NCBI GenBank assembly: GCA_023424865.1 | Contig: JAFADM010000045.1 | Span: forward strand, 1-19,852 | DNA length: 19,852 nt | Reading direction: 5' to 3' | Origin: Bacillota bacterium | Lineage (GTDB): Bacteria; Bacillota_A; Clostridia; DSM-8532 | Translations under genes and position numbers: made by a program | Shown: positions 10,012 to 17,004 of the stretch, one piece after another | Layout of the letters: the number at the start of each line of letters is the position of its first letter | Numbering within the stretch: the stretch's first letter is position 1 | The notes under the pieces: model-generated | Database searches by the model: none | Told to the model about the DNA's origin: nothing | The model's input: the letters and a program-made list of their open reading frames with translations, nothing else

Positions 10012-13000
10012 ATGAGTAAAAGGCAGTACGTGAGTGTTTTTCTGACCCTGTGCTTTCTGCTTAACATCATCACAGCCGTGCTTCCAGTCAGGGCGGAAGA
10101 GACATCGGGAGACTTGGCAGCAGTGACGACAGTTGAAGAGGAATACGCTTATTCCCAGAGCTTTGACAGCGGCTTGCCCCAGGACTGGCTGTATTCGGAT
10201 TCCCAGTTTTTCACCATCCAGGCATGGAGCGGGGCCACAGGAAACCGTCTGCAGGCTCTTTATTGGGCCGGATCCACTCGGGCGGTTTACGAAGAGCAAA
10301 GCTTTCAGGCGCCATTCACTTATAAGCTGGATGTGGCGTCCTACGGGGGCAATAATGGAAACAAAACCCAAATACTTTTTGACTACGTGGATGTAAGCAA
10401 TTACTACTTCCTTGAAGTCGGAGGCGGCAGCGCGGCTGTTACCAATCCCACCATCGAGCTTAAAAAAAGAGTCTCCGGTACTGTTTCAACCCTGGCTTCC
10501 ACCAGCGGCTACGGTTTTGACGGCAAAGTCATTACCTTTGAAATCGTACATGAAGCCGGCGGGCTGATTTCCGTTTTTGCTACCAAGGAAGGCGTCACTG
10601 AAACCCTCATTAACCGTGTGGCCGACAGCTCCTTTACCGGCGGCAAAATCGGTGTGGCCACCTCTTACAACCAATCCTTCTTTGACGAAATAACCGTTAA
10701 GCTGGAGGGGGATTTGGGGCCTACCCCGACACCGGACCCTACGCCTACACCCACACCCTCACTTACCCCGAGGCCCGATCCCGAGATAACGCCTACACCC
10801 TATCCAACTCCGGATTATAAGCGGGATCCGGCTATATGGCCCTTTGACACCAACAGCCCCTGGAATTATCCTCTGGGCTACGGTGCTCTTCTTGACGAAA
10901 TTGTTTCCGATGGCTTCAGCATTAACAATAGCGCATGGATTAATTCCACCGGTTACAGTGAGCCCGTTTTCATTGCGACGGAGGATGATCCCATACGCAC
11001 CATTACACAGCGGAATAACCCCAATAACACGGTTACTGTTAGGGTTCCGCCGGAATCCATGATCGATCCTCAATCTGACGGCAATCTGCTCATCATTGAT
11101 GAAACCCACAGCATTGTTGTAGAGATGTGGAAATGCGTTCTTGAGGCAGACGGTAATTATACGGCTGGCAGCATGGTGGTAAACAGCCTTTATGACTGGG
11201 GCTTTTACACCACCTACCATGGCGTAAGGGCTGCAGGCTGCTCGGTTCTGGGCGGTCTCATACGAAACGGCGAGCTGACGGATCCCTCAGGCTTTGGCAT
11301 TAAGCATGCTCTTGCAGCAGCCGTTTATCCCGCAGCCTTAAACAATGTGGCACCTGAGGGCAGCCCGGGAAGAAGCTGGGTATGGCCCGCAAGCTCTGCC
11401 GACTCCCATCATGACTCGACCTATACCTCTACAGGCAATCTGTATATGGGTTCCCTTATGGCGATTCCCATTGAAGTGGATATTGAAAGCCTGAATCTTA
11501 AAACCATCCAGGCCCAAAACATTTTTAATGCCCTTCAGCGCTATGGAACCTATATTGTTGACTGCGCCTACAGCAATCTTATTTTCTATGCCGAGCCCTC
11601 GGTGAAGCCTGAAATACCCATTCAGTATTATGGCGATTACTATGAGGATATTGTTAAGGTTACACAGCAGCTGAAAGTGGTGATAAACAATTCCAAAACC
11701 GATGTTGGCGGACCCGGCTATCGTCTTGGGCCTGTAGCCTCCGACTTAATCGGGTTCTTTGATAATTTTGAGGATGGGGACAGAAGCGGCTGGAGCGGTG
11801 CGGCAGGCGGCTGGTCCATATCCAGTGACGGCAGCAAGGTGCTTCGTCAGTCCAATACCACGGGAAGCACACGCATTTATGCCGGTGACGAAACCTGGTC
11901 CGGTGATCATTACTATGAAGCAAGTGTAAAGATTACCGCCGCTTCCTCCGAATCTTCGGCAGTAAGCCTGATTGCCCGGCAAAGCGGAAATGACTATTAC
12001 TTGCTTACCCTTTATCCTGCTTCAGGAGCCATACAGCTCTCAAAGAGAGTGGGCAGTACAACCACCGTACTTCAGCGCCTGGAGAATCAGGGAATTACTA
12101 CTGGTACACGGTATAAGCTAAAGCTAACCTTTATAGGCGACAATGTGACGGTTTATCTCAATGGTTCATCCGTTATCTCGTTAACGGATAACGGACCCTT
12201 GCAGGGCAGGGTCGGTTTTTCCGGAAATGCGGCGGCCTATAATGTGGATGAGGTTAAGGTAAAGCCTTTGGATGGCGGAACTACGCCCACACCGACGCCG
12301 ACGCCGACACCGACGCCTACAACGAGTCCGGAACCTACGCCTACGACAAGTCCGGAGCCTACGCCTACGACAAGTCCGGAACCTACGCCTACGACAAGCC
12401 CGGAACCTACGCCTACAACAAGTCCGGAGCCCACGCCTACAACAAGTCCGGAGCCCACGCCTTCCACCTCACCCGCCTTTCCTTTTTCCGATGACTTCAA
12501 TGACGGAAATCGGAACGGGTGGATCGTTACGTCCGGAGGCTGGTTTATAACCACCGACGGCTCCAGGGCGCTGCGCCAGAGTAACACAAGCGGGGGTTCC
12601 TTCATTTCGGCAGGCTCTGCATTATGGGAGAATTATTCAGTGGAAGCCCGTATGAAGGCCACCTCCGCATCTCTGGATACCAGTCAGTTTACCCTGGTGG
12701 GCAGGTATGACGGAACCAATTACTATGGTCTGTCCATCTTCCCGGCAGCAGGTAAGGTTCAGCTTATTAAACGGGTGAACAATACCCTGGTTGTCTTACA
12801 GGAGGTAACCGGGCAAAGCCTGGCGGCAGGGGAGTGGTATCATCTCAAGCTCCAAATGGCAGGCAGCGCTATTATTGGTTATCTTAACGGTAATGTGGTT
12901 GCCACCGCCACGGATACGGATATCACAAACGGCAAAATCGGTGCGAGAGGGAGTAACGCTGCTTACAACACCGATGATGTCAAGGTGTCCTTCGAAGAGG

Positions 13001-13497
13001 ATTTTGATTCCACTCAAACACGGTGGACTATCGGAGCGGGCACCTGGTCACACACAACAGACGAAACCACCGTATTAAGCCAGAGCAATGCATCAGGGCC
13101 CTCCTTTGTCTCTAAAAGCGGTGATTTCTGGGGGAATTATACCCTGGAAGCCAAACTTAAAATGACTGCCGGTGCTTTGGATACCTCTTCCTCAGGGCTG
13201 GTTGTTGGAGTCAGTGGAGGCGACTATTACACCTTACAGCTTATGCCGGGTACAGGAACCGTTAAGCTTATGAAGCATGGGGGAGGTACCACGGAGGTTC
13301 TTAATACAACCACCGGACACTCTTTTTCACTTAACACCTGGTATGCCATAAAGCTGGATTGGCGAGGAGGCGTTCTCAAAGGCTATGTGGACGGTGTTCA
13401 GGTCATTTCAGCCAATGACAGCGGCATTACTCTGGGCGGGGTCGGGTTTGCCGGAACCGATTCAACTTTTAGTGTGGATGATGTCAAGGTTTACTAA
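10012..13497 (+). CDS. Secreted multidomain protein: four concanavalin-like modules, PT linkers, unassigned central domain
   Basis: An 1161-residue exported protein. The signal peptide (hydrophobic about 6-24, likely cut after Ala28 in VRAEE) is followed by module A (about 46-232), a Pro/Thr linker (236-268), a central domain (about 271-535), a short connector, module B (582-751), a repetitive linker (757-822), module C (824-993) and module D (995-1161). Modules B-D share FxDxFxDG...W, a GGW-type turn, LRQSN, YY-x-L, KRV, G-x-V-x-V or GYxxG, and a closing VDxVKV; A is a diverged copy. Such laminin-G/DUF1080-like sandwiches sit on clostridial pectin- and glycan-degrading enzymes and probably bind polysaccharide. 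The central domain has SPWNYPLG, GLIRNGEL, GFGIKHALA, WVWPAS, MGSLMAIP and ALQRYGTYIVD, an order I recall from uncharacterised secreted proteins. No cell-wall anchor is seen, so it is probably released. The ATG follows GGAGAGG. Confidence 0.9.
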   Translation: MSKRQYVSVFLTLCFLLNIITAVLPVRAEETSGDLAAVTTVEEEYAYSQSFDSGLPQDWLYSDSQFFTIQAWSGATGNRLQALYWAGSTRAVYEEQSFQAPFTYKLDVASYGGNNGNKTQILFDYVDVSNYYFLEVGGGSAAVTNPTIELKKRVSGTVSTLASTSGYGFDGKVITFEIVHEAGGLISVFATKEGVTETLINRVADSSFTGGKIGVATSYNQSFFDEITVKLEGDLGPTPTPDPTPTPTPSLTPRPDPEITPTPYPTPDYKRDPAIWPFDTNSPWNYPLGYGALLDEIVSDGFSINNSAWINSTGYSEPVFIATEDDPIRTITQRNNPNNTVTVRVPPESMIDPQSDGNLLIIDETHSIVVEMWKCVLEADGNYTAGSMVVNSLYDWGFYTTYHGVRAAGCSVLGGLIRNGELTDPSGFGIKHALAAAVYPAALNNVAPEGSPGRSWVWPASSADSHHDSTYTSTGNLYMGSLMAIPIEVDIESLNLKTIQAQNIFNALQRYGTYIVDCAYSNLIFYAEPSVKPEIPIQYYGDYYEDIVKVTQQLKVVINNSKTDVGGPGYRLGPVASDLIGFFDNFEDGDRSGWSGAAGGWSISSDGSKVLRQSNTTGSTRIYAGDETWSGDHYYEASVKITAASSESSAVSLIARQSGNDYYLLTLYPASGAIQLSKRVGSTTTVLQRLENQGITTGTRYKLKLTFIGDNVTVYLNGSSVISLTDNGPLQGRVGFSGNAAAYNVDEVKVKPLDGGTTPTPTPTPTPTPTTSPEPTPTTSPEPTPTTSPEPTPTTSPEPTPTTSPEPTPTTSPEPTPSTSPAFPFSDDFNDGNRNGWIVTSGGWFITTDGSRALRQSNTSGGSFISAGSALWENYSVEARMKATSASLDTSQFTLVGRYDGTNYYGLSIFPAAGKVQLIKRVNNTLVVLQEVTGQSLAAGEWYHLKLQMAGSAIIGYLNGNVVATATDTDITNGKIGARGSNAAYNTDDVKVSFEEDFDSTQTRWTIGAGTWSHTTDETTVLSQSNASGPSFVSKSGDFWGNYTLEAKLKMTAGALDTSSSGLVVGVSGGDYYTLQLMPGTGTVKLMKHGGGTTEVLNTTTGHSFSLNTWYAIKLDWRGGVLKGYVDGVQVISANDSGITLGGVGFAGTDSTFSVDDVKVY
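12319..12462 (+). repeat. Six tandem 24-bp repeats encoding (TTSPEPTP)6
   Basis: Six in-frame units of about 24 bp (such as ACGACAAGTCCGGAGCCTACGCCT, shown split here as ACGACAAGTCCGG plus AGCCTACGCCT) differ only at a few third positions. They are preceded by a run of PT dipeptides (12283-12318) and encode the flexible linker between modules B and C. The low divergence at DNA level means the copy number may vary between strains by slippage. The same composition occurs without strict repeats in linker 1 at 10717-10821. Confidence 0.9.
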
Positions 13498-15534: not shown

Positions 15535-17004
15535 GTGAAAACAAAGAACTTTTTAGACGAAATACAAACCTACATACCCGAACTTGATAGCCTCTTGAAC
15601 GCCGGTGTTGAAGAAGTAAAGCTTGGTGAGCTGGAAAGCCGCTTAGGCTGCGTTTTCCCGGAGGATTTCAGAAGTCTTTATCTTTGTCATGACGGTGAAG
15701 GAGATGGGCTGTCCGGTATCATGGCTGGATTTAAATGGATGGATACCCGTTCCCTGCTCCGTGCCTGGGAATCCCTTCAGGAATCGGCTTACAATGTGAT
15801 TTCCCATGAAGACGGTTATATAAAAGACGGCGAGTATAAGAAAGGTTGGATTCCTTTTGCGGAGGACGGGGGAGGTTCCTTTCTGGTTCTGGATCTGGAC
15901 CCTGGCATTAAGGGGAATGCAGGTCAGATTATCACCGCGGACAGGGACTCCGATGTCTCCTATGTGACGGCGAAAAGCTTTTCAGATTTTCTGGATATCA
16001 TTGTTAAAAGCTTAAAAAGCGGTGCCTTAAGTCAGGATGAAGAGATCGAAGAAGAAACGGTTTTTGTTTGGGCTAACGGCCATTTCTTTGACGATGTTCT
16101 TACCTTATCCGGCACTCAGACATCCTCCGGAGCGATAAAGCTCGACGCCTTCTGGACGGAGTACTATGGGGATGAGGCCGTTAACGGCTATATAACGGAA
16201 AAGGCTTTAGCCAAGCAAAGAATGGTCTTTATTCGAAACGAAATGGCCAAAAAGCACGGGGCTATATCCCTTGAACTTCTCAAAAAAATGGTCAATCTTA
16301 AGGAGTTAATCCTTCACGCACAGAAGGTGGAAAGCTTTCAGCCCCTTGAAGAGCTTTCAAGCCTGACTAAATTTGTAACCGGAAGCGCTGCCTTTAAATT
16401 GTCGGATGTGGAGTACCTGGCCAAGCTTAAAAACCTTAAATGCCTTCATTTATGCGAATTAAGCCTGGAGGATATCAGCTGCTTCCAAAATATTACATCG
16501 TTGAAAAGCCTGTTTTTATATAAAACCACCATAAAGAATTTAGCCTCAATCGGAAATCTTAAAAATATAACAGAGCTTGAGCTGGATAAAATGGAGGCAG
16601 GCGATTTGTCCTATCTTACCGGACTGATTAAATTAACCTCTCTGAACCTTGAGCGAATTAAGCTTCCGAATCTGAAATTTCTGAAGGATCTTAAAAAGCT
16701 GACCGTCTTTTCCACGGACACCAAGGCAGAGGATGCCTCCGATGAGGAAATTCTCCACAGCCTGAAGAAATTAAAGGAGTTAAACTATCCTGTAAGCGAT
16801 TTAAGCATACTGAAAAGCTGCCCCAAGCTCACCTGTCTGACTATTGACACCGAAAAGATAAAGGATATGAAGCCTTTTGCCGATGCCAACATTACTTCGG
16901 TAACGCTTTACAATATCAAGTCCGATGAAGAGGCGAGACAGCTTGCTGAAGATATTCGTCGTTACCATTTCCTGCAGGCATACAGCTGGCGATCACCCAA
17001 CTAA
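15535..17004 (+). CDS. SUKH (SMI1/KNR4) domain protein fused to leucine-rich repeats
   Basis: A 489-residue soluble protein with no signal peptide or membrane segment. Residues about 21-155 match the SMI1/KNR4 (SUKH) fold: ELESRLGCVFPEDFRSLYL, HDGEGDG, GWIPFAEDGGGSFLVLDLDP, and TAKSFSDFLDIIV. Residues 175-245 form a linker domain with paired aromatics (FWTEYYGDEAVNG). From about 250 to 465 come roughly nine leucine-rich repeats of 22-24 residues (LKNLKCLHLCELSLEDIS, SLKSLFLYKTTIKNL, LKNITELELDKMEAGDLS, LIKLTSLNLERIKLPNLK). SUKH domains act as immunity partners of bacterial toxins or as protein-binding modules, and LRRs bind proteins, so a protein-interaction or immunity role is inferred. GTG 15535 has GAGGT 10 bases upstream. 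No toxin gene is adjacent. Confidence 0.85.
   Translation: MKTKNFLDEIQTYIPELDSLLNAGVEEVKLGELESRLGCVFPEDFRSLYLCHDGEGDGLSGIMAGFKWMDTRSLLRAWESLQESAYNVISHEDGYIKDGEYKKGWIPFAEDGGGSFLVLDLDPGIKGNAGQIITADRDSDVSYVTAKSFSDFLDIIVKSLKSGALSQDEEIEEETVFVWANGHFFDDVLTLSGTQTSSGAIKLDAFWTEYYGDEAVNGYITEKALAKQRMVFIRNEMAKKHGAISLELLKKMVNLKELILHAQKVESFQPLEELSSLTKFVTGSAAFKLSDVEYLAKLKNLKCLHLCELSLEDISCFQNITSLKSLFLYKTTIKNLASIGNLKNITELELDKMEAGDLSYLTGLIKLTSLNLERIKLPNLKFLKDLKKLTVFSTDTKAEDASDEEILHSLKKLKELNYPVSDLSILKSCPKLTCLTIDTEKIKDMKPFADANITSVTLYNIKSDEEARQLAEDIRRYHFLQAYSWRSPN

Follow-up and report, generated by a model that had tools for sequence, protein, structure and literature searches.

A large, unnamed family of secreted domains, shared with phages, that probably acts on surface polysaccharides

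What does the central domain of a secreted protein do when its surroundings resemble those of polysaccharide-degrading enzymes and the domain itself matches no named enzyme family? The question is raised by the open reading frame (ORF) at 10012-13497 on the forward strand of a 19,852-nucleotide stretch of Bacillota bacterium DNA (contig JAFADM010000045.1; the window), which encodes a secreted modular protein of 1161 amino acids. Our analysis describes a real, well-folded domain of a very large unnamed family that probably cuts or modifies surface sugar coats. We put the probability that it serves as the catalytic part of a secreted enzyme active on polysaccharides, representing a new family, at roughly 60%. 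This is the best reading because family members mostly look secreted, carry invariant His, Asp, Arg, Glu, Tyr and Asn residues, lie near polysaccharide-synthesis genes more often than expected by chance and occur repeatedly in phages.

The first-pass annotation of the window placed the domain at residues 271-535 and described six motifs, all of which are present in the ORF (SPWNYPLG, GLIRNGEL, GFGIKHALA, WVWPAS, MGSLMAIP and ALQRYGTYIVD, starting at residues 282, 415, 427, 456, 479 and 507). The start of the domain holds, while its end at residue 535 (11616) was set too early. Homologue alignments run beyond this point to a GGPG motif at residues 566-569, and we therefore delimit the domain as residues 271 to about 574 (10822-11733). 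AlphaFold2 models it with confidence (predicted local distance difference test score, pLDDT, 95.2; predicted template modelling score, pTM, 0.93). A single-sequence search found 8 proteins, and a profile built from 11 sequences matches 611 of 7,996 scored candidates at E ≤ 1e-3, so the domain is no chance pattern.

The suggestion that no glycoside hydrolase (GH), polysaccharide lyase or carbohydrate esterase family can be named for the domain is borne out, as it has no significant Pfam or NCBIfam match. Across 86 aligned members, no family of either collection matches more than two, and one match, to GH113, is at chance level (E 0.065). Foldseek gives no PDB match at E ≤ 0.001 for the models of the window domain and of a distant relative (branch III, below). 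Parts of these models were barely tested in that search, so we make no claim of a new fold. Sequence searches of the PDB with the window protein and with two family profiles (A3, A8) return linker, sandwich or chance-level matches only. Judged by title or the start of the abstract, no article within the open literature covered describes the domain. Its sole PHROGs match, which covers residues 7-252 of the domain as first delimited (E 2.5e-23), is phrog_17388, annotated as 'minor tail protein'. This phage family has no assigned activity and is also matched by homologues from Gordonia phages. Its homology to the window domain is direct at the sequence level, whereas the N- and C-terminal parts of the phage proteins differ from those of the window protein; the last module of the latter has no BLASTP match in the C-terminal part of the phage homologue (E 2.9).

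The relatives make up a large superfamily divided into three branches. A genome scan yields 189 relatives among 245 pattern matches, and the best 80 of these, retained for analysis, give 76 loci. By title, these belong to Cyanobacteriota, Pseudomonadota, Actinomycetota, Myxococcota, Bacteroidota, Acidobacteriota and others, with one locus from Bacillota (L018). In a set of 25 genomes, all picked for holding a relative, profile A4 detects members in every one and, at E values between 1e-9 and 1e-16, reveals an additional branch, III (GLPIFPGLVRYDEV type); intermediate proteins match at 1e-32 or better. A search with branch III matched all 7,998 scored candidates. None of the branch III and intermediate proteins scanned has a Pfam or NCBIfam family over the domain, and the 120 branch III matches listed provide no name or Pfam domain for the fold, the one named entry taking its name from an S-layer homology domain that it carries. 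Several betaproteobacterial members are named 'Atrophin-1 multi-domain protein', seemingly a mis-annotation, and no publications on that name appear in the literature covered. Some contigs carry the domain in series, with four neighbouring copies, one preceded by leucine-rich repeats, in a goat-colon Clostridia contig (L018, 9599-17214) and three consecutive copies in an Acidobacteria contig (L016, 6686-10879).

Conservation was assessed in 298 of 388 domains after removal of near-copies (159 from branch I, 50 from II and 89 from III; mean pairwise identity 30%). At 13 of the 309 positions, each of the three branches keeps the window residue in 90% or more of its domains: W284, N285, P346, G415, R418, E421, H432, P459, A460, G480, Y511, G512 and D517. 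For six of these (N285, R418, E421, H432, Y511 and D517), conservation lies at 92-100% in each branch, and for H432 and D517 it reaches 99-100%. The invariance of Asp, Glu and His in the motifs, proposed in the first-pass annotation as a check, is thus found across the 298 domains and extends to Arg. The conserved motifs are as follows, with fractions for branches I/II/III.

10855..10866, forward strand: S-P-W-N motif with W284 (.98/1.0/.98) and N285 (.98/1.0/.98)
11254..11277, forward strand: GLIRNGEL with R418 (.97/.98/.92) and E421 (.97/.98/.99)
11290..11316, forward strand: GFGIKHALA with H432 (.99/1.0/1.0)
11377..11403, forward strand: WVWPASSAD with P459 and A460 in all branches and D464 in I and II only (.97/1.0; Ala at.94 in III)
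11530..11595, forward strand: ALQRYGTYIVD...AE with Y511 (.93/1.0/.98), G512 and D517 (.99/1.0/1.0) in all branches

D464 and E528 are kept in branches I and II (E528 at.90/.94) and replaced in III, which has an Asp two columns after the position of E528. As the window copy retains all of the conserved residues, it is probably functional, judging from its sequence.

The relatives were predicted to be uncharacterised secreted proteins, and they are uncharacterised and mostly secreted in appearance. By a crude measure, 75 of the 87 family ORFs from cells have a hydrophobic stretch at the N terminus, compared with 235 of 964 other ORFs. The genes of cellular members are also often found close to genes for polysaccharide synthesis. 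We counted genes of glycosyltransferase (GT) families GT2 and GT4 within about 10 kb of the family gene at one locus in each of 28 genomes. There are 38 such genes, against 6.39 expected from genome-wide counts, and one or more occur at 15 of the 28 loci, where 5.6 such loci were expected (binomial P 8.6e-5). As a control, the regions of RlpA and MltA genes in nine of the same genomes contain two GT genes, against 2.37 expected, in 2 of 18 regions. The loci, mostly from isolate genomes with long flanks, were picked after gene clusters had been seen; 29 of the 76 were taken, and one (L058) was dropped for sharing its genome with another (L036). Branch III genes are left out of the count. The local counts are low estimates, since the GT models were built from 13 and 18 seeds only. 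The background consists of Pfam counts and is slightly low for three large genomes (G018, G021, G027), in which not every candidate was scored. We do not use a Poisson value, because GT genes cluster and some of the loci are related.

Individual loci illustrate the association. On a plasmid of Mitsuaria sp. 7, the family gene sits in a same-strand run with genes for a tyrosine autokinase, an exosortase, an O-antigen ligase, acyltransferases and glycosyltransferases. In Laspinema, it lies amid Wzz, Wzy_C, GT2 and flippase genes on the same strand, and in Rhizobium rhododendri it adjoins a GT2 gene, with Wzy_C, a hexapeptide transferase and another GT2 further along. A putative UDP-galactopyranose mutase gene, identified by eye in ten cyanobacterial loci (for example L025, L053, L055, L068, L071 and L079), hints at galactofuranose as a constituent of the polymer; we dropped it as a clue to the substrate, all ten loci being cyanobacterial. 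Exopolysaccharide operons commonly include glycoside hydrolases or lyases, according to a published account (PMC9894940). The enzymes it covers (PelA of GH166, PslG, AlgL and PgaB) resemble the family in being secreted or exported and encoded within a polysaccharide-synthesis locus. They differ in that the window domain has no covering Pfam family and that any activity of it is putative.

The domain is shared with viruses. A tblastn search of annotated phages returns 69 records, every one from a Gordonia phage, a number of which repeat the same phage. Among the 40 matches listed, at 30-33% identity, the annotation is minor tail protein for 28, hypothetical protein for 11 and glycosylhydrolase for one. 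A viral collection adds 24 loci among 72 pattern matches, and in one of its contigs (L092) the domain follows a tail-assembly module (phrog_778, E 1.7e-61). Another viral contig has four divergent copies in separate ORFs (L099, 1878-11891). In a quick tree of 112 domains, with Shimodaira-Hasegawa-like approximate likelihood ratio support only, 11 changes of label are needed to place the viral rows, at least five of them forced by well-supported branches; the domain has therefore moved several times between cells and viruses, in a direction that the tree does not give.

If the domain is catalytic, the sandwich modules of the window protein would hold it on a glycan while the central domain acts on an extracellular polysaccharide, such as that of a capsule, a sheath or a biofilm, most likely by cutting the backbone. 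It would use H432 and D517, conserved throughout the superfamily, with assistance from R418, E421, Y511 and N285. Lyase chemistry based on Tyr, His, Arg and Asn may apply, as may acid-base hydrolysis by Asp and Glu; cleavage of peptidoglycan is less likely. In cells, relatives encoded in exopolysaccharide loci may trim or release the polymer made there, whereas phages may use tail-borne relatives to pass through it. The window copy, standing alone with its own sandwiches, would work extracellularly, either on the polymer of its own cell or on a foreign one. The carbohydrate-active role suggested by the first-pass annotation thus gains from polysaccharide neighbourhoods, from binding modules on a few members and from phage tail proteins, all of which point to glycans. 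The domain, its family and conservation, the genomic context and the sharing with viruses are observed; we infer catalysis, a common pocket, backbone cleavage over other modifications, the catalytic residues and the substrate.

Several observations weigh against this assignment. None of the members we came across has a known activity. Neither GT2 nor GT4 is found at 44 of the 76 loci, some of which are short contig ends, leaving 32 with a GT gene. Within the 28-genome set, 10 of 15 cyanobacterial loci are positive as opposed to 5 of 13 others, so that cyanobacteria supply 10 of the 15 positive loci, and neither gene family appears at the loci of two Actinomycetospora, two Williamsia, Parahaliea and Undibacterium. 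A scan of six ORFs flanking the gene in the window, with inspection of the ORF list by eye, reveals no polysaccharide-synthesis gene. In a census of 83 full-length proteins, from which near-copies and a pair of ORFs longer than 1,200 amino acids were set aside, 79 have no recognised carbohydrate-binding module. Such modules occur on at most four (ricin-B in two, CBM_6 with F5/8C in L041, NPCBM with PA14 in L027). In a Steroidobacter member (L069, 226-2274), the ricin-B part also matches Pfam CDtoxinA just over the cut-off, probably through a shared lectin fold. Finally, 'minor tail protein' is an annotation: the gene of phage Guillaume lies between the portal and capsid-protease genes, and that of Stormageddon beside genes for an RNA ligase and an ADP-ribosyltransferase.

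The main rival explanation is that the protein is a non-catalytic glycan-binding or matrix protein, which binds exopolysaccharide in cells and a receptor in phages, its conserved residues forming a binding site or supporting the fold. The lack of a known activity suits this proposal, as does the composition of the 13 conserved positions, seven of which are Trp, Pro, Gly or Ala. Several relatives contain hardly anything beyond the domain, and phage tail proteins often only bind. It has to account, however, for a His and an Asp kept at 99-100% across three branches with a mean identity of 30%, a degree of conservation exceeding what binding modules usually show, and in the window protein three clear sandwiches and one probable one could already do the binding. 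We consider this rival unlikely, while giving it real weight.

In its fold, the model of the window domain weakly resembles double-psi barrel glycanases such as MltA and expansin, raising the prospect of a barrel of this kind that works on peptidoglycan, perhaps a remote lytic transglycosylase in which D517 and E528 would stand where MltA has D297 and D308. The resemblance is not seen with the branch III model, and neither MltA nor other double-psi barrels such as expansin show profile similarity to the domain. MltA homology is ruled out at the sequence level (hhalign probability 0.1%, with an MltA alignment of six sequences only). MltA (GH102) has three aspartates, the catalytic one following a D-T-G-G motif. 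The window domain lacks DTGG and has one Asp (D517) kept across all branches, with E528 or a nearby Asp depending on the branch. A relationship of this kind is improbable. Less probable still, to the point that we would be surprised by it, is an enzyme that modifies a secreted polymer without cutting its backbone, be it a deacylase, epimerase or transferase. The genomic context is the same for such an enzyme, the Mitsuaria locus holds acyltransferase genes, and phage deacetylases exist. On the other hand, the 13 all-branch positions include no Ser or Cys (at the position of S282, 61% of branch III has Asn), making a classic serine esterase unlikely, and the repeated occurrence in viruses suits depolymerases better. 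A polysaccharide-active catalytic module remains our preferred reading of the central domain.

The rest of the window protein is organized as follows.

10012..10095, forward strand: predicted signal peptide, about residues 1-28 (by eye: hydrophobic stretch, AVLPVRA)
10144..10710, forward strand: N-terminal module, probably a divergent sandwich, about residues 45-233 (BLASTP E 0.008 against the third module)
10714..10821, forward strand: Pro/Thr linker, residues 235-270 (from the sequence)
10822..11733, forward strand: central domain, residues 271-574 (alignments, AlphaFold2 pLDDT 95.2, PHROG 17388 E 2.5e-23)
11767..12222, forward strand: concanavalin-like sandwich module 2, residues 586-737 (PF06439, E 1.4e-6)
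12283..12462, forward strand: Pro/Thr linker encoded by tandem repeats with 18-base and 24-base periods (repeat analysis)
12490..12942, forward strand: concanavalin-like sandwich module 3, residues 827-977 (PF06439, E 1.4e-7)
12997..13428, forward strand: concanavalin-like sandwich module 4, residues 996-1139 (PF13385, E 2e-8; PDB 4b1l, E 3.1e-4)

The first-pass description of sandwich modules and Pro/Thr linkers on both sides stands for the three downstream sandwiches and the linkers. The upstream sandwich is only probable, because Pfam gives no match for the N-terminal module and its BLASTP similarity to the downstream module is weak. Within the repeat-encoded linker, the 24-base Pro/Thr repeat spans 12309-12462. 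The last sandwich resembles the binding module of a Bacillus levanase (PDB 4azz and 4b1l, the match being to the 4b1l chain), which we take to be CBM66 of Bacillus, the record itself reading levanase; this likeness concerns a flanking module and not the central domain.

Around the gene, the six scanned ORFs encode an ABC permease, a peptidase S15, an ABC_trans_CmpB protein, a radical SAM protein, a SUKH protein with leucine-rich repeats and one product without a match. The radical SAM protein (PF04055; 6218-8977, reverse strand) has a cysteine-rich tail. The genes upstream of it on that strand, read by eye, include a TetR-like regulator and a small HD-like ORF that has no Pfam match. At 15535-17004, a SUKH-type domain (PF09346) is joined to leucine-rich repeats in one ORF; SUKH proteins are often immunity proteins.

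A wider proposal, which we hold tentatively and with the odds somewhat against it, is that the family constitutes a new class of polysaccharide-degrading enzymes with a fold not in the PDB, comprising thousands of unnamed proteins, with which bacteria of many phyla cut their own exopolysaccharide and which has been exchanged repeatedly with phages as tail depolymerases. Should the domain prove to be an enzyme, a large set of proteins that currently go by 'hypothetical' or 'Atrophin-1 multi-domain protein' would become a new exopolysaccharide-degrading family. Its substrates would be traceable, as each locus-encoded member could be tried on the polymer of its own locus. It would also explain the protein in the 69 Gordonia phage records and offer new depolymerases for biofilm matrices.
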